A stretch of 64,000 nucleotides of DNA from Chloranthus sessilifolius (lineage: Eukaryota > Streptophyta > Magnoliopsida > Chloranthales > Chloranthaceae): positions 87,762,097-87,826,096 of the forward strand of contig CM037590.1 in NCBI GenBank assembly GCA_021018995.1, given 5' to 3'. This document shows, one piece after another, positions 1 to 51,149 of the stretch. The notes below the pieces were generated by a model. That model was not told the DNA's origin, ran no database searches, and saw only the letters and a program-made list of their open reading frames with translations. The translations under genes were made by a program, and so were the position numbers. Numbering within the stretch: the stretch's first letter is position 1; the number at the start of each line of letters is the position of its first letter.

Positions 1-1536
1 TCAATAAGCTCAAATCCTAAATGCATGCTATAGCCTGAACAAAACTATGGGAAAATAGAAAAATAATAGATTAAATAAATATTTAAAGCATAAATTCCAT
101 TGATCTAAAGTACCAACAATAAAATTTCTCAAGGCAGCAGCCATGTGCACAACAACTCTTCACAAAAATCCCAATGTTTAAATGACCTATTATAAAACTA
201 AATGAAACTACACCTAATTGCTTACCAAAGATTTAGTCAGCAAGTGCTGGCCTTAGAGAGAAGAAAAAATAGAAAAAGAGGTGATCAAACCCTAACCCTA
301 ACCCTAATCTGCTTGAGCTCTCAGCCGAGAGAGGTTGAAGGAGAGAGTGATTGATAAATTCTAATTTACAAGCACAGCTTATTTACTCAATCCTACTACC
401 TTTTCTAAGAGAAGAATAAATCCTAATTTTTCTAGCAGATGTGGCACTTTTACAACCTTGGATTTCTTAGGTGTGTGCCTCAAGATCAGTGCCTCGATAT
501 GTGTGCCTTAGACATGTGGAAATTCCCAAAGGGTCCTTGACTTAAGATTGAGAAGTGGAGGGATCAAGCTTCGCGAGGCCAGCTTCTGGACATTACTTCT
601 ATCACATAGTTGCTTTATGCTTTCAGTTCCTTCACGAAGCTTACAGAGTCCTCGAGAGGTAAGAATTTGGCCTTGAGTGTTGCTGTCTCGCGCTGAAGGA
701 CTTTTGATGATCATGCAGCTGATCTGGCTTTGAATGCACTCGCACAGAAGGTCTTGCAGTGCTTGGCTTACTCGTGCAGTAGAGCTTCAGAAGCACCTGT
801 CACGAGGTACTCGCGCAGTTGCCTTCACATCTCGCTCGATACAAGGTTAAACTTCTAGGCGCGCGAGAGCTGTGCAAGAGAAGTTTCTAGGCATCTCTCT
901 CCTCCAGAGCTACACGAGAACTTCATGAGGTCATTGCTGTTGTTCATGCAAATTGGTATCGCGAGGTAGCGCGCGTGGTTGCTTTAAAGCTTGATCCTCG
1001 TGAGAGCATCGTGAGCTTCTTTTCATGTTGATTTCAGCTTTAGTGTGCGACTGCTATGCGAGAGGCTTCTTTGTAGTAATAATCCCCTCACTGAGCTGCA
1101 TGACTTCTTCGCGAGCTCTATTATGCTGAATGTCTTAGCTGCACGAGGAAGCATTGCTAGTGAATTGAACAGCGAGAGGTAGCACTTCAACTGTGCGACA
1201 TAAGTCATTTGTTCCTCTACTGCTATGCTCATGCTTCTGTTACAGCTTCCTCCACTCTCATCTATACTTCTTTCATCTGTTGGACTGTCTTGGTACATTA
1301 TGACATGCAAGATAGTCACCATGGTGTGTACAACCATGGTGTTTCATTACTCTTTGGCTCAACTGTCATTCTTGGCTTGAATTCTCTCTCTCTTGGTACC
1401 AAAGGCATGGACTTTTTATTAAGCTGCACAATTTATTACTAACTACAAAATATACTTAAACAATAGTTATTAGTCAACTTTAAGGTCTAGCAAAGGCTAG
1501 GTTAAGAGGTGAAAAGTGGTACTTTTCTATGAATAA
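1..1536 (-). mobile_element. Partial LTR of an Athila-type element (A1)
   Basis: This stretch matches the right-hand 1.5 kb of the LTR at 9832-12550 almost throughout: the stretch around 'cctaaatgcatg', the CGCGAG-rich middle, the 'caccatggtgt' segment and the final 'aaaagtggtacttttc'. The left part lies outside the window. The match stops at about 1536, where sequence of element D begins. The orientation is the same as A2, so the parent element would read on the - strand. I see no gene in it. Confidence 0.8.
560..1210. repeat. CGCGAG-word cluster in LTR A1
   Basis: The words CGCGAG, CTCGCG and one-step variants (TGCGAG, CACGAG, CTCGTG) recur many times here. They are rare in the neighbouring elements C, D and B. 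The same cluster occurs in the related LTRs A2 and E and inside E. Many variants look like CpG decay of one parent word. Confidence 0.6.
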
Positions 1537-2476
1537 ATCCAGTCAACCCTAGGAGGGTGATGCCCTCATGGTCTCTAGAATGAACTATTGGGAAAGTCTG
1601 GTCCAACCAAGGAAGCCTCCATATCACTCTGCGTTGGTCAACCAAGGCTTCATAGCTGAGGAGTCACCCTACAGAAGAAAGTGACACCTACCCAAAAAGC
1701 ATCAAGCTGCGTCACCTCAAGCGATATAAAAGCATGGCACGGGTCTAAGATAGCGAGATGCTCACCTAACCAGACCTAAAGCAGCAAAGGACATCCCCTG
1801 AGGCTTTCCACCTTGCCCAGAGCAAATGCATCAGGGCATCAGTATCGTTCGGCAAGGACTAAGTGCATCACTGATCGGCCCTTTACCAACTCGATCAAAA
1901 TGTCGCAGAGAGCCAGAGAGAAGCTCTCTCCACCAGTGAAGAAAAGGACTTCCGAAATGAGACTGAGAGCAAAGGCTTTTACACTAAAGATATTCCTAAT
2001 CGGCAATTTTTGAAGACTTTCGTCACTGAAAAGTTTTTTAAGGAATTTGATCGAACACCTTGTGGGCCCCCTAAGAAAAATTTCTTCAAACCTAGGGTAA
2101 GGTGAATGGATTTGGAGTAACTCGACTTCGGCGTGACTCTTGCGAGACCTCTGTGGAGCTTCAAGCCAGACAAATTCAATAACTCCTCAAGAGTGGGAGT
2201 CAGCTTCCGCTTCCCAAAACGGAACACATGATCATTTGCATCCCAAAGTGAGGTGGCCGCATGAAGTAGGTCCCACCATGGAGGAACCTCGAGAAAGAAG
2301 GGAAGGCGTGATAATCCAAGCTGCTCTAGTTCAACGAGCTCACTCTCATTCAACTTCCCAAGCCAACTCTTTAGAAAATTGGGCCCCAAGCCCAAAGAAG
2401 GGAGTGAATTAGTTTCGGGCCCTCCATGTAGGAGAGGGTTGGAAAGCGGGTCCATAGACGTACAAAGATCTTTCAA
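1537..2476 (-). pseudogene. Remnant of antisense DUF7745-like gene of D
   Basis: The reading frame starts near 2476 or at the inner Met shortly after it. Residues such as VFRFGKRKLTPTLEEL and GLKLHRGLARVTPKS match the protein at 21568-23067 (VFRFGSRELTPTLEEL, GLKMHRGLATLVPKS). Similarity continues weakly toward 1537. The family (DUF7745-like, frequent in plant transposon-related ORFs) has no known function. It lies antisense to the parent element, downstream of where integrase would be. It is broken in several places and lacks the C-terminal coiled-coil part. The identification rests on the C copy and on my recollection of the family signature. Confidence 0.7.
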
Positions 2477-2582
2477 GGATATAAAAATTCAATGTATGTT
2501 AATGGACCCACCCTTGGGAAAGCAAGCAGAAGAAAAAATAGCTGAAAAGGCCAAGTCAAAAAGAAAAGAAAGGAAACATGGA

Positions 2583-2595
2583 CTCGGGCATATAA
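2583..2595 (-). promoter_or_regulatory. Core promoter-like site of D antisense gene
   Basis: On the - strand a TTATATG box (2589-2595) is followed at once by CCCGAG (2583-2588). Element C has the same pair, TTTATAA then CCCGAG, at 21415-21427. In both elements the box lies 26-27 bases downstream of the last palindrome and 120-150 bases upstream of the gene. Conservation across two diverged copies suggests a real start region; no transcript evidence is available. Confidence 0.5.
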
Positions 2596-2622
2596 GGCCC
2601 CACAGCTCCCCAGGCTAAAATT

Positions 2623-2690
2623 GGCACAACTATTAGTTGCGCCAATGCAAACTTCCCTAGAATAAGCCTGGCACAACTAATAGTTGTGCC
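2623..2690. repeat. Two 21-bp palindromes upstream of the D antisense gene
   Basis: The copies are at 2623-2643 and 2670-2690. Each has a 10-base arm (GGCACAACTA or a near variant), one central base, and the mirrored arm. The second is a perfect dyad and extends to 25 bp. The consensus arm within D is GGCGCAACTA. Same length and design as the palindromes of C, but a different arm. Confidence 0.9.
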
Positions 2691-3402
2691 AGTACATTTT
2701 CCCCCCCTTCTATGCCATTTTGGGACTTTTTGGGGATATTTGTGAGCCCTTGCTGGCCCCCCCTTAGCCAGTTTACCTGATTCACCTGCTTGATACTATG
2801 AAGACATTCAAACATGAATGATAAAAAAGGCACCTAACATTGAAATAATTTGACTTTTTGTGCAGGAGGAACCCGAACCAAGGCATATGACCTTGAGGGC
2901 CACTTTTATGGGCAATCGTCAAAACCATCACTAAACTTGTCCAAACAGAAAATCATCCAAAAAGTGCTACAAATATCTGCTACAAACTTTGCAAAATCCT
3001 AATAAAAATTATCCCAAAATGTTTGAATTGTTCAAAATGCAAAAGCTAAGGCCTAATCCTTGTTGGCGCCCTTCAACTTCCTCCGCCAACGCGAGGAGCT
3101 TTGGAAGGTCTGAATATCTCCCACTCGTGACCATGCCTGCGAAAGTCGGTTGAGCAAAGAGTGCAACTCCTTGGTGCGTGCACGCTATAAGTCATAGTCA
3201 AAATCAGAAATCAGGATCAATCGAGGAACAAAGGATAGCAAAATAGTGAGAAAGATGGAGCGGCTAAATACTCACCACCTCCATGTCCCGGAGCTCTGCG
3301 ATGTTATGGTAATATGCAGCATGCTCCGTGGCCGAGTCAAAATTTTACATTCAGAGGGAAGGGATGTCAGTTGCAGGGACTAGTAGTAAACACATGTATT
3401 TA

Positions 3403-3621
3403 TCAAAGGAACCAAGACAAAGGGAGAACGATCGTCAGAGGGCTTACCCCCAAAACCACCACAAGAGGAGGGGCCCAAACCGCTTCACCTGAAATGCGTG
3501 CCTGCTCATCCATGCTGGCGCATAGACCTAAGAGAAGGCTATCGTCGAGATGTCTGAAGGTCCCATAGACCATGGGTAGAATACCACCAAGGGCTCCCAC
3601 ATGAGGGGAACCTATGACCAA
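3403..3621 (-). pseudogene. Remnant of 3' part of antisense PMD gene of D
   Basis: On the - strand the peptide GTFRHLDDSLLLGLC followed by EQARISGEAV matches the C-terminal region of the PMD gene of element C (GTFKHLDDAFLSRVC, EKARISAEAI). The core plant mobile domain itself is not seen in D. Flanking bases 2700-3400 and 3622-4935 hold no further gene. The stretch 3630-4935 resembles the 3' noncoding part of C (about 15402-16600), and contains a short internal duplication around 'caatgcctcata' near 3640 and 4540. Confidence 0.65.
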
Positions 3622-4937
3622 TCAGATGAGGCAATCAATGCCTCATACGATGGGCGCACAGCTATGCATATGCGTGTTTCGATACAGTAAAAGGTCAATA
3701 TTTTATCGACAATGCAGTTGTGGTAAATTAATGTCCTAAATCTAAGGTGCACCTTAGATTTATGGATCCTACCTCACAGTAGGAGAAATGGTGTCAATCC
3801 CGATCAAGCTGTCAATGTTTTGATCGGTTCGACTCCACTGCTAAATCTTCAAGCTAAATGCTCTATCTTTGGATTTATATGAGCATGAGTGTCTAACTTT
3901 AGATTCATCACAAACTATTTCGAAGGTGTGAACCCTTGGTCTACATTGTCTAGGCATGTGCCCTATGGGGTTTGACGTCCAGGTAACTCCATTATGAAAA
4001 AGGTTAATCGTTGGTTGAGACCAACTTGTTGAAAATGGAACTACATATCAATCACCTATGTGTAAACATGCACATAGAAGGGTTCATTTCCCTTTATTGG
4101 CACAGTATCCATGTACAGTGTATGCCTTGTGTCTAGGTATTTGTAGGGTGGTTGTTTGTTCTCGTAAATTGTACTCGGACAAGATCTGGGTCGAGACTTC
4201 CATCGCCTTTGTTGCTTATCACTCCTAATGGGTGCAGGTTTATGCATAGTTCAATGATTTGTAAAATCATTATCGGCAGAAACCAGGATCAGCTGTCCCC
4301 TTTGGTGGGCACCTAATTTTGGCCGGATCTATTCAGTGTCATTTGAGGTTGGATACTCTGGGTCATGATGATTCGGGGCATGTTGGAAAAGCGGCACATA
4401 CTCCCAAAAAGTGTTGCGACATTTGTTCGCGCCACTCGGGTAGTCGTGCTAAATAAACTTTGGGATCAATGGGTTCGCCCAAAAACCTTGAACCCTGCTT
4501 CAAGCAGGGGTACCCGTGACCAGTCAAATGAGGCGGTCAATGCCTCATATAATTGGGCACATAGTGTGGAGCCTTGCGTACTTGCTTTGCGCCTATTTTT
4601 AAATGTGGGTCAATCACCCTCCTTACTTACAAAGTTGTTGTATTTAGAATGAATCTTGAACATCAAAATATCTCGAGAAGCAACTGTTTTTCCTAGCTAT
4701 TGGGCTTTTGCAACTCATTTTCCACCTCGATTATGCTCAGTAATATCGCTAAGCGCTTGGGAACTGATTACCTTGAGAAATGACCGTTTTTCTCGACATA
4801 CAGAGCTTTTATTTTCTCACCATGTTACTCATCTGATTTTTGAAGTTCATTCTAAATGCAACAGACCCATCAATAATGCCTTGGGCCTCTTCGAATGTCT
4901 CTTTTCTTTGGCATTCGATCATTACTGATCGGATATC

Positions 4938-4950
4938 AAAGAGGGGCATC
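4938..4950 (+). promoter_or_regulatory. Polypurine tract of D
   Basis: AAAGAGGGGCATC directly precedes the LTR start TGTAGACACCC. The same tract, on the other strand, borders the 3' LTR of C. It primes plus-strand DNA synthesis in this class of element. Confidence 0.8.
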
Positions 4951-5353
4951 TGTAGACACCCAAATTTAACTTAAGGCCCGATTGAGACACATTTCGAGAG
5001 AGGCGCATCTCTGAGCTTTTGATGGCATATATGGAACCATTAGAAATCTATTTGAATCCTTAAAAATCATCCTAGATCCCTTAGGAACCTTCCTGAACCC
5101 TCAGAAACGCATTCCGACCCTTATAACCAATTTCAGACCTAAACCTAACTTTCCCGAGCAATGAATGAAGGGTGATGCACTGGTACTAGTTGTGACCTTC
5201 TACTATGATCAAGTCTCATACTATTGAGAAGTAGAAGTCCTCATCTTTTCAACGAGTCAAGAATCACCCCAATCGGAGCTGTACACAAGAAGATATTGCA
5301 TTCTGAAGTGTAGGGGCAGAATGGTAAATAGTGTGGAGACCCCCTAGGGATTT

Positions 5354-5472
5354 GGCGCAACTAATAGTTGCGCCAGCATTAAGGTGGGTCCTCCTACGGG
5401 TAGCCAACTTCTCAGGGACTGTTCAAGCACTATTTTACTATACATATGCTTAGCGCAATTAATAGTTGTGCC
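5354..5472. repeat. Two 21-bp palindromes in the U3 of the D LTR
   Basis: The first (5354-5374) is a perfect dyad with arm GGCGCAACTA. The second (5452-5472) is imperfect. They lie roughly 285-400 bases upstream of the TATA box. The C LTR palindromes lie at similar distances (about 280-500) from their TATA box. Confidence 0.88.
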
Positions 5473-5756
5473 AGGCATATGAATAGTAACCCTAGTTCTT
5501 TACCTCGAATTTTAAGATTGGGGTTTGACTTGTTGACCATCTTTACCTTTGGGGTGTGTTTTGCTAGTTCTGTTGCACCCATTTACTATCCATATGCAAC
5601 CTCTTAAGTGGTTTAAAGCCTCGCCCTATCATCCACCATTGGAGAAACTCTTCACACTTTTTAAGGCTCCAAAAATCCTAGGAAACCATAGATTGCCTAT
5701 TACCTAATTGCTAATCTAAATTAGCTTCTAAGTACCCTCCTAACCTCTCTTTTTCC

Positions 5757-5764
5757 TATAAATA
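5757..5764 (+). promoter_or_regulatory. LTR TATA box of D
   Basis: TATAAATA followed by GAGAGG, in the middle of the LTR. Element C has CTATAAATAGAGAAG at the matching place. This is the likely promoter of the element's genomic RNA. Confidence 0.65.
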
Positions 5765-6481
5765 GAGAGGCACCCCTCCCTTTACAAAGGCTTGAAAAAA
5801 TTTGCAAATTAGAGATTAAGGAATCCCTTCTCTCTCTCCCCTAGTGTACTCTTTTCATCCAAATTCCAGAACTTTCAAACCTTCAAAAAACCTTAGCCTT
5901 CCATCAAAAAACTTTAGTTTAGGTGTGTGCTACCCCTTAGCCTCCCTTCTCTGCCTCTTAGCTACCCACCCTAGGTGTTAGAATCCATCATCAAGCTATA
6001 TAAACCATCAAAAGCTCACTAAAGCAAGCCAACGCAAGGCTCCACAGTGGTGCAATAAGGGCCTATGAGCTTCGGCTCTCCCCTCTGTTCCTCTACCTTC
6101 TCGGTTCTTCCTTCATCCTCACATTTGTGCCGTTACACCACCGAAGTTTCGGTAGGAACGAAGGGGCACAAATAGGATTTTAATGCCCCTTGGGCAATAG
6201 GAAGACCTATATGCATTTTTCACTTCTTTTTTGCTTTGGCCATAAGTAGAGACTATGTTAAGCAGGTTGATTGGGTGCCTAACACCTTCCCAATCGATAA
6301 TCGAAGCCCCTACCCAAGAGCCTTTGGTGTAGACCGGATTCAAAGTCATATTTGTAACACTTCGGTGCTTATAAAATTGATCAAGGTTTCTCAGGACACC
6401 AAAAGCTTCGAGTGGCGACTCTAAATATTTCATAGAGAGTGCATCGTCGCGACAGGATCGTCAAAAATCCCACTGTTGCAC

Positions 6482-7594
6482 ACCAATGATTAGGCTCCTA
6501 ATCTTCTCAAGAGTTCCCTAATTTTGCCTAGGTATTGGACTATTTCGCCTAGTCGATTTTAGCATGTTCTACATGGGCGGTGGCGTTGATGACTCCCCTT
6601 TCAATATCTTCTTTCAATGTGATACATTCCTGAATTTCTTCTTCAAAATGGGCAATACGTGTTGCATACATTGCTCGTTTTGGGTTGGATCTTGGGGTAT
6701 GCATTTTCATTACTTGAAGCAGGGCTTTCCAATAATCCCACTCAACGTCTCATTCAGCCTCTAGTTCGGCACGCTGCTTTTCTAATTTTCTTCTTAAGGT
6801 TACACTCATCTACAATTTTGTATCAAGTAAGTGAAAGGTTAGGATCAGGATTATGTTGTCGATAGGTACAATCGATCTCCTGTTCGAGTTTTCTATGAGG
6901 GTACACTAATTGACTGACCTTGACAGTTATCGCCTATGGCCTAGACCCTAAATATTTTTACTCAGGGTAAGGTTTTGTTTTTCGGCAGGCGATAGTTTTC
7001 ATTTATCAACTAGTCGAGAAAATCTTATTAATTAAAACCTCTCAAGTATGTGTGGTCGATCAGTGACTTTTATTTATGACATCAAATCGACCAAGACTGT
7101 CAGTGTCAATCAATCAATTTATATCGCCATTTATGGTGATATCAACCAATCTAATCAAACCTATCAAGCATAAACTATACGAATACAAACGGAATCAATA
7201 ACAAAACTATATCATATCAAGTGAAAGGATCAATCTACATCAAAATAAATAATGCAAGAAAATCATGACTTATGGTAACTTATCAAAACTCAATCTTGTA
7301 ACATATATTGTATCAGAAGTCAAATCACTATCAGACAAACAGAATGTGCCAAATGTTATCCAGAAGTCATATGATCAGATTTATACCATATAATCATATC
7401 CTTATTCAGAACAGATTCAAAGTCATTATTAATTTACTAAGTTCATATTCGACCAATTATATCAAAGACATATGCAGATAATCATATGCATGGGTCAAAA
7501 CTTAGTCAAACAACAAACTATACTTAGACTGTCTATCTATTCATGCAACCCAAACCATATTCAACTAATCAAAATTTCATAACTAACATTCAAA
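6482..7594. other. Unassigned stretch between D and the Tekay remnant
   Basis: No confident feature. From about 6540 to 6860 the - strand reads as a charged, coil-like peptide (for example HFEEEIQECITLKEDIERG). This could be the tail of another retroelement extra ORF, but I cannot match it to a copy in the window. From about 6900 to 7590 the DNA is AT-rich and without coding signal; it may be 3' noncoding or LTR sequence of the chromovirus to its right, but no LTR ends or polypurine tract are clear. Confidence 0.35.
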
Positions 7595-14799: not shown

Positions 14800-15014
14800 G
14801 GCATATATATTATATACGCCCAGTTTAGGAACAGTGAATTTCACCAAAAACAGGGGAGCTTTGGGAAGATGAAGCCCGTAGTGGGTCCCACCTATGCTGG
14901 GTGTATATATTATATACACCCGACCAAATTTCTCCCAAAATAGGCAAGCGTATATAATATATACGCTTGACTAATCTGGAGCTAAATTGGCTGGGCGTAT
15001 GTAATATCCACGCC
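14800..15014. repeat. Four 21-bp palindromes in the 3' LTR of C
   Basis: The copies are at 14800-14820, 14900-14920, 14947-14967 and 14994-15014. The consensus arm is GGCGTATATA, followed by one central base and the mirrored arm. The second is a perfect dyad with both arms changed to GGTG/CACC. The third is perfect over 25 bp with AGCG/CGCT. The fourth is imperfect. They lie upstream of the LTR TATA box. Confidence 0.95.
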
Positions 15015-17398: not shown

Positions 17399-17466
17399 GG
17401 CGTATATATTATATACGCCTGACCAAAATCTGGCAAAAATGGTCGGGCGTATATATTATATACGCC
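17399..17466. repeat. Two 21-bp palindromes upstream of the antisense PMD gene
   Basis: The copies are at 17399-17419 and 17446-17466. Both are perfect dyads with the consensus arm GGCGTATATA. They lie about 1 kb upstream of the first coding block and 28 bases upstream of a CCCGAG doublet at 17495-17506, as the palindromes at 21320-21388 precede CCCGAG at 21422. Confidence 0.95.
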
Positions 17467-18419: not shown

Positions 18420-20850
18420 ATGTCCGGTGACGAAGGGCATGATCAGCAAGAAGGGCCGGAGATGGCCTACGGTCCCCGTGGGGAACAGTTCATCGTGTCT
18501 CAGCGCTCCTCCCAGCCTTGGTATGAAATGCAAGGCGAGGAGGCCCATACCGGCCTCCTCTACTACCAGCACACCCACATGTCCAACTTTGGGATCGTTG
18601 ATCAGGTAAACAGATGAGCCCCCCCCCTTTCCGCTTTTATTTTCCTTTGATGTCTTCATTATACCACCTTGCCCCTATCTGATTGATGCCTTTTGTTTGC
18701 AGCCCCTGTCGCACATTATGTTCTGAGGCGGTTGGTTTGACCTCCAGCGTCTCGTGCTTTATCTTCCCCCAATGGTGAAAGACCTGCTCATCGATGCCGG
18801 TTTCGGGGATTTCATTTCGTGCCCCCGCCATGAGGGCTGATACGGCCTATTTGAAGGCTCTGATAGAGAGTTTTCGCCTCGAGACCATGACATTTCACAT
18901 GCCCGTGGCAGAGATGGCCTTTACACCTGCGGACTGGTCTATGATCACTGGGGTCCGTATTGGAGGGGTGCCCATGGTACCTACCCGTACACCGAGTAAG
19001 GAGGAGGTGATTCGACTGATAGGGGTCTACCCAACCTCTGGGAATATTCGAGGTTGTGAGGTCAAGCTGTCCTGGCTGGTTGATCAGTTTGAGCGTCACG
19101 AGTTACTGGACCAGGGCCAGCCTGACATGGCCATTTATCTCGAGCCCGCACGCGGACATATGCTGGCCTGCATTACTCTGCTATTCCTCCTAGGCAAGAT
19201 TCTCTTCTCCAACACCAGCGGAGGGCGAGTCTCGTTGTCCCTGCTCAGCCTGATGGTGAACTGGGAGACCGTGCATCGATTCGATTGGGGTGGCGCCGGC
19301 TATGCGGTACTCATGTCCAGCCTAAAGCAAGCCGTTCTTGGGGAGTCTAGCTCCATTGTGGGTTTCTGGCCTGCAATTGAGGTATTTTATTCTTTGGTTT
19401 TAGCTTGTCCAATTTTCTTTTACGGCATACCTGTCTTTATCTGCTTGCTTTCTCAGATTTGGGGGTATCTTCACTTCCAACTGGGTCGCCCTCTGCTTCA
19501 GTTTGAAGTTGCTACGTTCCCCCTCATGTGTAACTGGCACGTGAGTCACCATCAGGACATAGATATGAAGCATTTGGAGTTAGGGTTGCGCTCTCAGTTC
19601 GACCTGTTGTTCCCAGAGTAGGTAAAATAATTCCCTTTTTATAAATTTGACAGCTCTTGTGTGTTATGGGTTCCGACCAAATGTGTGTATCCTTCCTCTG
19701 TTTTCTCTTCTTTTGTAGGTCATCCTCGACCCCTCCATAGGATCTCCCTTCTGGAACATGGCTTCAGTGGGTCCTTCTCGCTTTTTGCTAGACTGTCGCA
19801 TCATCTTCCTCTATGGGTCTTGAACTAGGGCCTACTATTTACGGGAGAGAGTGGTTCATCAGTATTGCCCTCTCTTTGCCATGCCCCAAGCTCCTCCCGC
19901 CGATGTGTTGGCTCTGAAAGGCTCCATTGATGAGCTTACTGCTCACTTTCTTCACCATGGGGTTCCTATTGATGACCTTCTTTTACCCAAGGGGTATAAG
20001 ACGTGGTACGATTCCCTGCCCTATCATTTCCTGCTGCCTCGCTTCGTGCCTGGTGCTAACTTTTTAGCTTTTGGCGGGCTGCGATATCAGGTAATGCCCC
20101 TTTTCTCTTTTTATTTAGCAGCCTCCTTGTGATTACTTTGATTGACCTACCACCTTTAATGATAAAATGTTTCTCTCTACAGTTTGAGCAGGGCGGCGAC
20201 TCAGATGAGGGGGATGAGGCGGCTGCTCCTTAAGATGCTACAGGTGCTGGACCCTCCAATCCTTTCGGGGCTGGTGCTTCTGGTGTGGCCTTAGGTGCTG
20301 GACCCTCTGACCCTTCTGGTGCTGGTGCTTCTGGTAGTTCGCCCGTCGAGGTCCAGGGGACTTTCAAGCATTTGGATGATGCTTTCTTGTCGCGTGTGTG
20401 TGCCGACGTGGCCGAGAAGGCACGTATCTCTGCTGAAGCTATCCAGGTCCCACCTCCTGAGCTGATCCCTGGGGTAATCTCTATCTTGTTGCTTTGTTCT
20501 CCTTCCCTTTGAATTATGTTGATGGTCTGTGTGACTAACACCTCCTTTTTCTTACTGGCCAAGATTATGAGTCGGCAGTGAGTCAAGCCGAATATTATCG
20601 TAACCTTGTTGGGCTTAGGGAGACCAAGGTGGTGAGTGATTCAAACCCAACCTAGTTATTTTCTTTATTTACTTTCCGCCTGTTTCTCTACCTGATGGCT
20701 TTTGGTGTGTTCCTACAGCGTGCTCGTGAAAAGGAGTCGCGTTCCCTTCTCAGCCGTATTTCTCAGGCGTGGACTTGGGTGGGGGAGACTCGTACTTTTC
20801 AAAGTGCGAGCCGGTGCCGGAAGAAGTCGAAGGGGGCTGCCCATGACTAG
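18420..20850 (+). pseudogene. Antisense PMD (MAIN-like) gene carried by C
   Basis: It encodes a plant mobile domain protein (aminotransferase-like family, related to MAIN/MAIL1), found in some nuclear host proteins and in several plant transposons. A first block opens at Met 18420. The core block (about 18830-19620) shows ETMTFHMPVAEMAFTPADW and MITGVRIGGVPMV, the typical start of the domain (HLPxGEMTxTLxDVxxxLGLxxxG), then a SWLVDQFE helix. Later blocks include GTFKHLDDAFLSRVC, and a basic end RKKSKGAAHD. Blocks are separated by T-rich stretches bounded by GT and AG that look like ordinary plant introns. It runs opposite to gag-pol, between integrase and the 3' LTR, as extra genes often do in the Tat lineage. 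It is a fossil with a few breaks. Its role in the element is unknown. Confidence 0.75.
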
Positions 20851-21244: not shown

Positions 21245-21388
21245 AGTGTATATATTATATCGCCTTTCAAAATGTTCAAATAATGGGATATATATAAAAT
21301 CCATAGTGAAGAATGGCCAGGCATATATATTATATATGCCTGGCAAAATGTTTTAAACTTTTGCCTTGGCGTATATAATATATACGCC
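21245..21388. repeat. Three palindromes upstream of the antisense DUF7745-like gene
   Basis: The copies are at 21245-21264 (decayed), 21320-21340 (perfect, 27 bp when extended, arm GGCATATATA) and 21368-21388 (perfect, arm GGCGTATATA with A at the centre). They end 26 bases before the TTTATAA box at 21415. D has two palindromes at the matching place. Confidence 0.95.
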
Positions 21389-21427: not shown

Positions 21428-21567
21428 CCTGGTCCCCCCCTTGCCTCCTCCTCCATCTTGGTTTGGCCTTTTTGCCCTTCCTTTAATCTTTTCCTTCCCT
21501 TTCTTTTTTCTAGTGGATCCATCGTCATACACTGACTGATTTTATAAAGAACATCTTTATACGTCGA

Positions 21568-23067
21568 TGGACCCACCTTTCGAAAAGGGGCCCAAGCTCT
21601 TATACGGGGGCTGGTATACTTCCTTGTTTGCATCCGGGGCCCAGTTTTTTGCAAAAATGGCATGATAGCTTGGCTGAGAGCGAGCTTGTTGTTCTGTATT
21701 GCCTTGGGTTGTCCCGCCTTTCCTCTCTCCTTGCTATTCCTCTGTTGCCCAACCTGTTGCACGCAGCTTTGGCGTCATGGGACCATAGGGCCCATGTCTT
21801 TAGATTTGGGTCTAGGGAGCTTACCCCAACCTTGGAAGAGCTGGCCTCTATTACTGGCTTGAAGATGCATCGAGGCCTTGCTACACTGGTGCCCAAATCA
21901 GGGTATGCAAAGGCAGTTCACACGGTTCTCGGTTTAAAAAAGGGTGGGTATGAGAAATGTTTCGCCAGAGGGCCCACTAGATGTTCGGTGAAATTCCTGA
22001 GAGAACTTTTTGGCAACTCGAGTCTCCGATAGTTGCCCATTCGAGATCCCTTCAACGTAAAGGCCTTTGCCCTTTATTTGTTGTCGGAAGTTCTCTTCTT
22101 TATTGGGGACGAGACCTTTTCCCTTGGGCAGTGCGATGTCTTGACTGAGTTGGAGGGAGGCCGCTCATTGGTGCACCTAGTCTTGGCTGAGATGTATCGG
22201 GGCCTGGATGCCTCGGCCTCGGGCCGGGTTGGGATTCTCAGCGGGAGCCCGCTCCTTGTTCAGATTTGGCTAGGAGAGCATTTGGCTATCATGGGGCCTG
22301 TGCCGAGATTGTGCTTGATAAGAGGGGACGTGGCTCGGGGCTTTCTGATCCGGTGCTCGAGATTGCCTCATGGGAGCGCCGAGGAGCTGAATATGTGGCT
22401 ATCAGATGCGGAGCTGATCTGGCAGCTTCCCTGGTTGGACGGTACCTTTTCGATTGTCCGCTCTCGAGATTGTGAGGGTATCACCCTATTGGGGTTGACC
22501 GGTAGCACATATTATTTCCCATCTTGGGTGCTTCGTCAGTTCGGGTATACTCAACGCGTGTCGTGCTCTGTGAGGCCACCTTTGTGCTCTCTAATATTTT
22601 CTTGGGGTTCTCTCAGTGATCTCGACCGCATAGCTGCCCGCCAATCAGCGCATATGTGCAGCTTAGTTCAGGGGGGCGTCGTCTCTCCTGATTACGAGGT
22701 TTGGCTGGTATCTGAGGAATTACCTACCCCTAGCCCAGTTTCGGTAGATGTGATAGAGACGGGGCCTTGGCCATGTAAGGAAGCGATGCTTTGGACCCGG
22801 ATCGAGTCTCTTTCTATGGAGAGGCTGGCTTTGATCGAGGCTTTGGAGAAAGAAAGGGTCAGAGCTGAGATTGCAAAAGCGAGAGCTGCCACAGCGGAGA
22901 GTGAGGTTCTTCGGTTGACTGGGCTTTTGACTGAGTCTCGCAGTGCAGCTGACGCTTCACGAAGACGGCAAAAGAGTCTTCATGGTAGGTGGATGTCTGA
23001 TCGAAATGCTCGCGAGGACTCTCTTCTTGCAGAGATCAGTGCTTTGAAGCGTGCTCCCTACCCTTGA
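21568..23067 (+). pseudogene. Antisense DUF7745-like coiled-coil gene carried by C
   Basis: A protein of about 480-500 residues is implied, starting MDPPFEKGP. Its N-terminal half has SWDHRAHVFRFGSRELTPTLE and KMHRGLATL, which I associate with the DUF7745 family seen in many plant retroelement-linked ORFs. The C-terminal third (about 22800-23040) is a charged heptad-like coiled coil rich in E, A, R and L (ALIEALEKERVRAEIAKARA). The end is near 23067. There is no signal peptide or membrane segment. The function of the family is unknown. It lies between integrase and the PMD gene, on the strand opposite to gag-pol. A decayed homologue is present in D. It has about one or two breaks. Confidence 0.7.
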
Positions 23068-33269: not shown

Positions 33270-33385
33270 GGCGTATATATTATGCACGCTCGACCAAAAA
33301 AATGCAGATTTTGGTTGGGCGTATATATTATATACACCTGGCTTAAATTTGGGGATTTTGGCTGGGTGTATATATTATATACGCC
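33270..33385. repeat. Three 21-bp palindromes in the leader of C
   Basis: The copies are at 33270-33290 (imperfect), 33318-33338 and 33365-33385 (each with a single mismatched pair, GGCG facing CACC or GGTG facing CGCC). The mismatches are all of the CpG decay type. Confidence 0.92.
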
Positions 33386-34233: not shown

Positions 34234-35819
34234 TGTGCGACCATGGATCCTCTCGAACACGTCGCGGCGATGCGCTCGCCTCGGATGAAATGTAGAGTTG
34301 CCACCCGGAGCTTTTGGTGACCCGGGAAACCTTCAAATCGATATTTTGAGCACCGAAGTGCTAAATATGACTCTGATTTATCAGTCTTTGCCAAAGGCTC
34401 TAGGGTAGGGGCTTCGGTTATCGATCGGGAAGGGTTTAGGAACCCGATCAACCCGCATGTAGCGGTCTCTATCTATGGCCAAAAATGAAAATAAAAAGGG
34501 CGGAGTTTCCCCTTGCCCGAAGGCAATACGGTCCTATCAAGCTTTGAGCCAAACCGAAATTTCGGTAGTGTAACGGCTTGAATCCTTGGACGAAGACACC
34601 AAGAAGGTAGAGGAGAGGGGTGAGCCGGAGCTCACGGGCCCTTGTTGCACCGTGGAAGATCTTCGCTTTGGCGTGCTTCCGATGGCTTACACGGTATAGA
34701 AATAGATTCTAACACCAGGATTCGGTAAAATAGGAAGTGTAGAGTGAGGCTAAAGGCTAGGCTTTAGCTAAAGGGAGTGGTCTAATGGTGGAAATGGACT
34801 GAAATAGATGGAATATGCATGCTGGAATTCTGGAAAAATATTGGCATTTTTTCTCACTAGGGTTTTCTCTTAAGCACTCTCTAACCTTTCAACCAATTTT
34901 TCAACCCTTTGGGAAGAGGGGGGCTTCTCTATTTATAGAGAAGGGATGGGTTAGGGGATTACTTAAGAGCTAATTGGTTTAGCAATTAGGTAATCCTCCA
35001 TCTAAGGTTTTTTGGGTTTTCAAGGTCCTAGGGTTTTGGGAAACTGGTTTCAATGGCAGATGATGGGGTGAGACCATAGGTGACATAAGGGTTACAAATA
35101 AGCTCAAAGGAGGTGCAACCAACCTCAAGACACCGACCCCAACAAAGGGGATGGTCAAAGGGGCAAACTAGATGAAGGAAATTTGAGCAACTGATGACAG
35201 TTACTGTAGCTAACCTGGGCGTATATATTTTATACGCCCAGTTTAGGAACAATGAATTTCACCAAAAACAGGGGAGCTTTGGGAAGATGAAGGCCGTGGT
35301 GAGTCCCACCTATGCTGGGCGTATATATTATATACGCCCGACCATATTTCCCCCAAAATAGGTAGGCGTATATAATATATACGCCTGACTAATCTGGGGC
35401 TAAATTGGCTGGGCGTATGTAATATCCACGCCTGAGCAAAATTTTTATGATTTTATGTGAAACTTCAATCGGCCATAACTTTTGAACCGTAGCTCTAAAT
35501 TGGGTGATCTTTGGCTTGTTGGAAAGCTAGAGAAGTCCTCTTTCCAATGGTATATGGCTTGACCTTGGTAATAGTCTGTATAAAAAATTGTAGCTCCTCT
35601 CCCATCAACTACTCAGAAAGGTTCAAGTTAGGTATGGGAAGGGAATCTAGGGTTCAGGGGTGATCTCTAAGGGTTGGGGAATGGTTCTAAAGGGTTCAAG
35701 GTGATTCCTAAAGGTTTGGGTGGATTCCTAAGGGTTCAGGGGTGCCATAAGAAGCACAAGGGTACATCTCTCCCGAAGTACAGATTGATCGGGCCTTAGG
35801 CCAAATTTGGGTGTCTACA
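34234..35819 (-). mobile_element. 5' LTR of C
   Basis: 1586 bp, bounded by TGTGCGACC and GTGTCTACA, followed by the target duplication GTACT. It differs from the other LTR by about 2-4% by eye, with most changes in the first 170 bases. TATA box at 34929-34938. Confidence 0.95.
35218..35432. repeat. Four 21-bp palindromes in the 5' LTR of C
   Basis: The copies are at 35218-35238, 35318-35338 (perfect), 35365-35385 (perfect) and 35412-35432 (imperfect). They match the four of the other LTR in order and spacing. Confidence 0.95.
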
Positions 35820-48885: not shown

Positions 48886-49073
48886 TGTTGATTACTTCTG
48901 GTGTGCTTTCATTATTGGTTAGTGGTGATAGTTATTTAAAAATCAAAGACAGAGTAAAACAGGGGGTGAATCCAGCACAACTCAGAAGTCCTAGACCTAC
49001 AAGATACAGGGTCCTTTGTAGCAAGTTTTGATAAGTAAGAGTTTGTCCCACAGGGAATGGTGATCTAGAGCTC

Positions 49074-49794
49074 CAGATCTGTCTACAGATCTGGAGCCAT
49101 CTCTAGATCTGTCTACAGATCTGTCTACAGATCTAGAGCCATCTCCAGATCTGTCTACAGATCTAAAGCCATCTCCAGATCTGTCTACAGATCTAGAGCC
49201 ATCTCCAGATCTGTCTACAGATCTAGAGCCATCTCCAGATCTGTCTACAGATCTAGAGCCATCTCCAGATCTGTCTACAGATCTAGAGCCATCTCCAGAT
49301 CTGTCTACAGATCTAGAGCCATCTCTAGATCTGTCTACAGATCTGTCTATAGATCTCTAGATCTGTCTACAGATCTAGAGCCATCTCTAGATCTGTCTAC
49401 AGATCTGTCTACAGATCTAGAGCCATCTCTAGATCTGTCTACAGATCTAGAGCCATCTCTAGAGCCATCTCTAGATCTGTCTACAGATCTACAGATCTAC
49501 AGATCTAGAGCCATCTCTAGATCTGTCTACAGATCTAGAGCCATCTCTAGATCTGTCTACAGATCTGTCTACAGATCTAGAGCCATCTCTAGAGCCATCT
49601 CCAGATCTGTCTACAGATCTAGAGCCATCTCTAGATCTGTCTACAGATCTAGAGCCATCTCTAGAGCCATCTCCAGATCTGTCTACAGATCTAGAGCCAT
49701 CTCTAGATCTGTCTACAGATCTAGAGCCATCTCCAGATCTGTCTACAGATCTAGAGCCATCTCTAGTAGTTCCTCCAGATCTGTCTACAGATCT
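49074..49794. repeat. 30-bp tandem array in the 3' LTR of E
   Basis: The basic unit is AGATCTGTCTACAGATCT followed by AGAGCCATCTCC. About 25 copies of GTCTACAGATCT are present, with occasional doubled or shortened units. Each unit contains the inverted pair AGATCT-gtctac-AGATCT. The unit length of 30 keeps one frame open over long stretches, giving a meaningless DGSRSVDRSR peptide. The other LTR has only about one unit (60298-60350). Confidence 0.97.
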
Positions 49795-51149
49795 GGCAGT
49801 CCTAGAAGGAGGGGAGTTTAAGGTCACTTATTCTAAGTATTCTAATATCTAAACTACAGAAAGTGTTGAGAGGATGGATGGAGTGTGGAAAATGAGTATA
49901 AAAAGGGTGAGAAGTACGTTATTAAGCCAAGGTCATGGAAGTTTTGTAACTCAGATTTAGATCTGATGTTATAGAAATCCTGTCCAGAGGCTACATTATC
50001 ACCTCTGAGGAGAAAGGATCCAACCCATCACTCTGCCATGATTCCACCCTTAAGGCTATAACCTATCCACTTGAATGGTCACAAATTATCTCACAAGTAA
50101 ATCATTGCAGGCACTATTTCATCTAGGTTACCAGCTCAAGAATCCATAGGGAACCTCAACCTCTAAAGTTCTATATGTGGGGCTAAGGCTATACGACCAT
50201 GATAGCCCAGACACATAGAACCAGCAAGAGATTGAGTACAACCTTCGATCTAGCTATCCATTGCTTGAGCGAGGCTACAATGGTCCAGTCACCAGCCTAT
50301 AATCTCTATAAACAGATCAAATCCAACATCTGATGGCGAATTTATACAAATATGGGGGAGTCTGCCTCTGTACAATCTCTCACCAGGCTTCTACAAGCTC
50401 AGGTGTAAAGAAGAAGGATCCATCTTAGATCGGTGGATCAGAATCACCCTAAGGCTATAATTTGTCCACTTAAATGGTCACAGACTATCCCAGAGGTTAT
50501 CCTCCTCATAGAGCCCAAAATAAAACAAGATTATCGCTGCTACCACCATGCTCACAAGGCACCAGCTCAAGCGCCCATGGGGATTTCAGATCTAGTGGGT
50601 CCTGTGGTGGGGCTAAGGCTGTAGGACCATGATAGCCCAGACACACAGGTCACTTGGATCTGAGTGGCCCTTAGAATCAGTCCTCCATTGCTTTGAATCA
50701 CAGCCAAAGCGATGGCAGATCACAAGGCAGCAGCCTTGCACAGAGCATCTCACACATAAACACCAATCCCACAAAGTACAGATCCTATTACAAAACTTCC
50801 ATTGATCGAATTCAAAAACACATACAAAGGCATAGCCAGCAAATGCTAGACTATGGAGAGAAGGAAAGAAAAAGAAAACTACTTACTGCTAAAAAGAAAG
50901 AGAAAAGACAAAATGATCTGAGATGGGTTCCCAGATGCCTAAACCTAAGCTCAGGTATGGGTTTATATAGTAGTGGGGTGGCGGCGCATTAGGGTTAGGA
51001 AACCCTAATTTTAACGATGCCACGTGGCCTGATAATAATCCTTGGATGCCTCGGGGCACGTGCATGGAGATTTGAGCATGGGAGTGCGTGCCCTAATCGC
51101 TAGAAATACCCAGACAGTCCTCTGCTAAAGAGATGGAAGTTTAAGGTCA

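Follow-up and report, generated by a model that had tools for sequence, protein, structure and literature searches.

Lineage-specific palindromic sites that track antisense genes in retrotransposons of Chloranthus sessilifolius

Introduction

Two LTR retrotransposon sequences, here called C and D, lie within a 64,000-nucleotide stretch of the Chloranthus sessilifolius genome (the window), and both carry 21-bp palindromes with a single central base (dyads). The question raised by this locus is why the symmetry and placement of these dyads are maintained while their sequence differs between the two elements. An earlier note on this DNA proposed that such a pattern is expected for a site that coevolves with a protein that binds it. 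Here we describe the dyads in the window and across the host assembly, relate dyad type to the phylogeny of an adjacent gene and weigh the explanations that could account for these observations.

Antisense open reading frames located between pol and the 3′ LTR are known from Tat-lineage elements, including TRP28 of Retand, PMD of Ogre and gene23 of Grande (PMC11963269, PMC6317226, PMC7264820), and an antisense PMD frame is reported for 57% of Ogre elements (PMC6317226). The accessible portions of these sources describe no dyads or cognate sites for the encoded proteins and leave their function open. The consulted part of the open-access journal literature describes no dyads of this kind, and one source treats palindromes, in the part available, as insertion targets only (PMC12477314).

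Dyads at matching places in two elements

The D sequence represents the 3′ portion of an LTR element, comprising the relic of an antisense DUF7745-like gene and a 3′ LTR. The broken relic (positions 1529–2488, minus strand) is recognizable by its similarity to the corresponding gene of C, with 59% identity over 108 residues and 67% over 55, and a TATA-like box for this gene can be read from the sequence at 2590–2595 on the same strand. The 3′ LTR spans 4951–6480 on the plus strand, where the start is placed by the polypurine tract and TGTAGACACCC and the end is approximate. Its TATA-like box, TATAAATA, is read from the sequence at 5757–5764, also on the plus strand.

A mismatch scan of the window recovers D dyads exactly where they had been placed before, with two upstream of the DUF7745-like gene and two in the U3 region of the LTR (dyads are given without strand throughout). 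The dyad nearest the gene (2623–2643) has one mismatch to GGCGCAACTAnTAGTTGCGCC, and its partner in the promoter pair (2670–2690), located 47 bp away from centre to centre, has two mismatches that are symmetric. In U3, the dyad at 5354–5374 is perfect and that at 5452–5472 carries three mismatches. Chance matches average only 0.01 per shuffle of the window, and none of 100 shuffles reaches four. Thus, all four sites reported previously as 21-bp palindromes are present far above the shuffled background, although only one is a perfect copy and the other three are imperfect. The second LTR dyad is also embedded in a longer imperfect palindrome (5435–5489) with arms of 27 nucleotides, and similar long arms flank the corresponding LTR dyad in four other loci (L001 to L004).

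The C dyad has the arm GGCGTATATA. Direct comparison of the arms reveals that D differs from C at positions 5, 7 and 8, with each change mirrored in the opposite arm, whereas the length of 21, the single A or T at the centre and the outer GGCG are common to both, as previously noted, and so is an inner TA. Placement is likewise maintained, such that the nearest dyad and the antisense gene's TATA-like box are separated by 27 bases in D and 26 in C, in line with the earlier note. In the LTR, the last dyad stands upstream of the TATA by 295 bp for D (5462 to 5757) and by about 291 bp for C (14810 to 14519). The observation made on D in the window is therefore confirmed.

Element C is more complete. 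It encodes RVT_1 and rve domains (Pfam), its two LTRs are 95% identical, and an open frame of 280 residues (18779–19621, plus strand) matches the Pfam PMD family with 77.9 bits (cut-off 34.9). This frame is on the strand opposite to pol and is located between pol and the 3′ LTR. Thus, C has two marks of Tat-lineage (Ogre/Retand-like) Ty3/gypsy elements, namely reverse transcriptase with integrase and an antisense PMD frame. A second antisense gene, which is DUF7745-like, occupies 21514–23067 (plus strand) and carries one internal stop. Dyads of type C are present in the 3′ LTR (14800–15014; centres 14810, 14910, 14957 and a weaker one at 15004), before the PMD gene (17399–17466; centres 17409 and 17456), before the DUF7745-like gene (21320–21388; centres 21330 and 21378), in the leader between the 5′ LTR and gag (33270–33385; centres 33280, 33328 and 33375) and in the 5′ LTR (35218–35432; centres 35228, 35328, 35375 and a weaker one at 35422).

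The D copy in the window carries neither a PMD gene nor PMD-promoter dyads, as judged from a D/C alignment with one weak inner anchor (E 0.001). In this alignment, about 0.5 kb of D (3572–4090, unstranded) stands opposite roughly 3.9 kb of C that includes the PMD gene and its dyads. Of 11 D-type ten-kilobase loci, five (L005, L009, L013, L014 and L015) contain PMD matches, which makes it likelier that this copy has lost the gene by deletion than that the D family lacks it.

Elsewhere in the window, a tandem array at 48981–49821 is built from palindromic units of 12 and 18 bases (AGATCTGTCTACAGATCT and similar) that are unrelated to the dyads. This repeat was considered as an explanation of the dyads and rejected as something else.

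A regular arrangement across the genome

The 2.17-Gb host assembly contains 9,405 perfect D dyads, 8,687 perfect C dyads and 725 perfect dyads of a third type, F. Reversed patterns, which served as the sole genome-wide controls, yield no perfect match for D or C. Together with the shuffles, these controls rule out chance as the whole story.

A looser scan of the window and 21 ten-kilobase loci, chosen from the lists of perfect dyads, yielded 168 dyads (91 C and 77 D), and only three loci include a single stray of the other type. The dyads of C and D elements cluster at four places: LTR U3, the leader preceding gag, the PMD promoter and the DUF7745 promoter. At all of these, which can be kilobases apart, an element carries its own dyad type. 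The leader cluster is a fourth place that was absent from the earlier note, and its dyads again exhibit the 47/48-bp spacing described below. It is present in C of the window and in six of seven loci that contain leader DNA (L011, L012, L017, L019, L022 and L072); the seventh (L001) ends before this place.

Spacing between neighbours is regular. Among 188 gaps of up to 160 bp, drawn from 284 dyads in 65 stretches, 148 measure 47 or 48 bp, 8 measure 37 or 38 bp and 16 fall between 97 and 101 bp. A distance of 47/48 bp corresponds to about 4.5 helical turns, and the gaps generally lie near half-integral turns at 10.5 bp per turn, those of 97–99 bp less so. The 37/38-bp spacing was seen between D neighbours and is about one helical turn below 47/48 bp. 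Neighbouring dyads are of the same type in 176 of the 188 pairs, and the 12 mixed pairs are seven E/G, two D/F, two E/C and one C/G (types E and G are defined below). Of the 284 dyads, 279 have A or T at the centre, and a tendency of this base to alternate between neighbours (85 different versus 58 the same at 47/48 bp) is only suggestive.

The arms are also better conserved than their surroundings. For example, arms of same-type promoters are 91–93% identical in D and F, compared with 43–75% in ungapped flanks. For C-type promoters, of which there are only four, the values are 75% for arms and 29–44% for flanks.

Dyad type follows the antisense gene

The earlier note had suggested a search for dyads at this position in other family members and a comparison of dyad arms with the phylogeny of the antisense proteins. 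A DUF7745 profile search, which is blind to dyads, identified at least 117 genes, with 118 of 4,408 candidates scored. Upstream DNA was taken for 40 of these, comprising the ten best, ten that are stop-free and 20 of the next rows. A palindrome scan that ignores arm sequence detects a dyad of odd length at the homologous position in 36 of these 40 genes (17 of 20 and 19 of 20). When learned arms are used, at least one dyad is found in all 40, and in 49 of 49 genes when nine C and D genes are included, a count that has no shuffle baseline and within which L029 and L030 each rest on one weak site. The earlier note would have been contradicted by an absence of dyads here in other family members, which is not what the sampled genes show.

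These dyads fall into six main types that are distinguished by arm positions 5–8: TATA in C, CAAC in D, TGTA in E, CATG in F, TGTG in G and TGCA in H. All six share GCG at arm positions 2–4 and TA at positions 9–10, leaving four variable bases. One dyad (L035) combines TATA with an outer T.

On a tree of 49 rows built from about 500 bp of the DUF7745-like gene, dyad type changes seven times, where the minimum is six and shuffled labels average 25.1 changes; none of 200 shuffles is as low. Before the count, four labels (L035, L050, L053 and L065) were assigned manually, since single elements can contain both E and G arms. The note's other contrary outcome, a dyad type unrelated to phylogeny, is thus not observed for this gene; for PMD proteins, the comparison covers types C and D only. 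The 22 D rows form one side of a branch with support of 97/96, and the eight C rows form one side of a branch with support of 100/100 and a long stem of 0.51. With midpoint rooting, four F rows constitute a grade below D, and D adjoins type F. The misfits are a fifth F row (L046) and two G rows that stand apart from their own type, and type H has weak support (57/84).

However, the dyads and the gene are only about 0.3 kb apart, and shared descent alone would give such concordance. The tree test excludes unrelated types and stays compatible with neutrality, and close linkage explains part of the agreement.

Half-sites change and modules move

Several F elements indicate how one type may give way to another. 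In L043 and L038, a D-like dyad (two mismatches) and an F dyad lie side by side, 48–49 bp apart, at a site that precedes the DUF7745 dyads by about 3.9 kb; this site is assigned to the PMD promoter by distance, since the PMD gene falls outside these windows. At the same distance, L040 carries an F-like dyad (four mismatches) and a perfect F dyad. Dyads were sought and not seen at the PMD-promoter distance in a fourth F-element window (L068), or in one E window (L067) and one LTR-position window (L071).

Genome-wide, perfect dyads that combine a D with an F half-site number 1,220 (585 + 635), whereas only two join C and D half-sites; mixing is thus seen between neighbouring types and hardly at all between distant ones. 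One D/F hybrid was inspected and belongs to an array in the leader that also holds three D dyads, and many of the 1,220 may therefore stem from one event. These hybrids rule out a strict requirement that the two arms change in concert, and change appears to proceed by half-sites rather than by whole dyads.

The dyads also group with the antisense PMD and DUF7745 genes in a manner that integrase does not. Integrase DNA of the C-type locus L025 is 87% identical to that of the D-type locus L013 and 78% identical to that of C in the window, in a comparison of seven rows of which one (L022) comes from an unrelated element. Across the two types, PMD and DUF7745 DNA is 57–64% identical. Along the element, L013 and L025 are 81% identical over integrase and about 60% beyond it, a pattern that would fit an exchange of everything past integrase between C-type and D-type elements. 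On these comparisons, the antisense module and its dyads are separable from pol. L025 and L016 (C) and L013 and L006 (D) have closely related integrases and very different antisense modules.

The proposal of coevolution is partly supported. Four arm bases vary against a background of preserved symmetry, place and spacing, and within a C or D element even sites separated by kilobases share a type. Conversely, the concordance with the gene tree is obtainable by descent, and the paired-arm rule is broken by the hybrids.

Two explanations that require no element-encoded binder bear directly on these data. The dyads might be sites for host transcription factors that were borrowed for expression, with different lineages adopting different paralogues. 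Their location 26–27 bases before TATA-like boxes is a usual place for host factors, and parts of the arms may resemble E2F- or MYB-like cores. This model does not explain why six types share the frame GCG....TA and a single spacing while tracking element lineage, nor does it give any reason for the scarcity of C/D hybrids, and we consider it unlikely. Alternatively, neutral descent could be combined with palindrome correction, wherein one arm is overwritten with the sequence of the other when the template is switched during reverse transcription, and mirrored changes arise without any binder. Reverse transcription is prone to such copying, the dyads and genes are linked, and within a type, changes to the same base in the two arms are only slightly in excess. 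Nonetheless, the 47/48-bp spacing, the fixed places and the shared type at distant sites are unexplained by this process, the arms are better conserved than their flanks and 1,220 uncorrected hybrids persist, making this the less probable of the two.

The antisense proteins and a candidate regulatory system

Most pairs of antisense frames differ more at third codon positions than at first and second, as in protein-coding genes under selection. This excess is absent for both antisense genes in a very close pair (C of the window and L018), and pairs that include L016 are blurred by a frame break. In a set of 117 C-like DUF7745 genes that were scored (84–100% identical), a good number are stop-free within the match, with open frames of up to 606 residues. 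Against the Pfam DUF7745 profile (PF24924, curated cut-off 26 bits), the C gene scores 17.5 and 20.4 in pieces and 38.6 when read through its stop, and the D piece has no Pfam match. No known DNA-binding domain was found in the antisense proteins, and a protein database search gave no match at E 0.001. Among solved structures, PMD has no match and the DUF7745 piece has one at chance level (E 0.58). The predicted fold of PMD alone has a mean pLDDT of 40 and is of no use. Searches for the D dyad in viral contigs and for papers naming DUF7745 each returned none.

The closest known parallel is VANC of Arabidopsis VANDAL elements. In the parts of these reports available, VANC carries DUF1985 (PMC5735166), and binding to motifs that are short, specific to a lineage, repeated in non-coding element DNA and changed between related lineages has been demonstrated together with demethylation (PMC5735166, PMC10398659). 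A lineage-specific motif repeated in non-coding element DNA is likewise found here, and the PMD protein of C has a DUF1985 match, albeit one of 16.8 bits that is the best among five element proteins, occurs in one of them and is below the cut-off of 35.1. The VANC6 motif as given in the source, AGTTGTCC, resembles the D half-site TAGTTGCGCC, which we treat only as a lead. The differences are substantial. VANDAL elements are DNA transposons, whereas the dyad carriers are LTR elements with reverse transcriptase and integrase. VANDAL motifs are direct and tandem and, in the text available, are not described as palindromes, in contrast to odd dyads clustered at promoters in a 47/48-bp phase. Finally, VANC binding and demethylation are established by the reported experiments, whereas such activity of the antisense proteins would be a prediction from sequence.

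A second parallel is provided by the Arabidopsis PMD proteins MAIN and MAIL1, which are tied to a promoter DOWN motif (25 of 26 genes); in the excerpts available, direct recognition of this motif is offered only as a hypothesis (PMC7156037, PMC9899485). These proteins are linked to both a promoter DNA motif and transposon control. They are host genes, whereas the antisense PMD described here is encoded by the element.

Lineage-specific dyads that track antisense genes suggest a private switch and an element protein that reads it. We favour, with a probability of roughly 0.6, a model in which a dimer of a protein encoded by the element itself binds the dyads as operators and regulates its own lineage in the manner of VANC. 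The candidate binder would most likely be one of the two antisense proteins of the PMD superfamily, DUF7745-like or PMD. Each half-site could be read as nGCG-NNNN-TA, with the four middle bases serving as a lineage-specific code, and dimers on dyads 47/48 bp apart would probably touch. Protein bound at LTR U3, the leader and both antisense promoters may act as an activator or anti-silencing factor for its own lineage and would also regulate its own gene. If its specificity shifted, half-sites would be replaced at all places, and the F-to-D shift may be an example seen part-way. We infer binding, the dimer, the direction of effect and the identity of the binder.

The opposite effect should also be considered. 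The dyads could be bound by the antisense protein itself as a check on copy number, or by a silencing protein of the host, so that the element is kept quiet. Host PMD proteins MAIN and MAIL1 act in transposon silencing, as described in the available parts of the sources (PMC7156037, PMC5418596), and many of the arm changes occur at CpG steps. A target of host defence would be expected to be lost, yet the dyads are kept at all four places, and we regard repression as improbable; self-repression by the element may still apply and would retain most of the favoured model. Least plausible are RNA structures that act in genomic or antisense RNA as packaging, translation or stability signals: the places lie within transcribed element DNA or the LTR and palindromes can fold, but Rfam matches are absent from 1900–6500, which eliminates a known RNA as the identity, a one-base centre beside an invariant TA makes a poor hairpin loop, and the spacing and distance to TATA are DNA-like.

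Discussion

The operator model can be extended, at slightly less than even odds, to at least six self-specific regulator–operator systems with four-base half-site codes among related retrotransposons of one plant genome, wherein the F-to-D switch would be preserved part-way and the cassette could be exchanged as a unit between pol backbones. For types E, G and H, sites at the LTR, leader and PMD promoter were not seen.

The dyads offer a concrete target for Tat-lineage antisense proteins, whose function is left open in the portions of reviews available. The six types and the hybrids constitute built-in controls for specificity, with thousands of natural variants. If the model is correct, these elements would represent a second VANC-like system, one with a short, readable code, and a genomic parasite would be keeping a private switch while changing its code.
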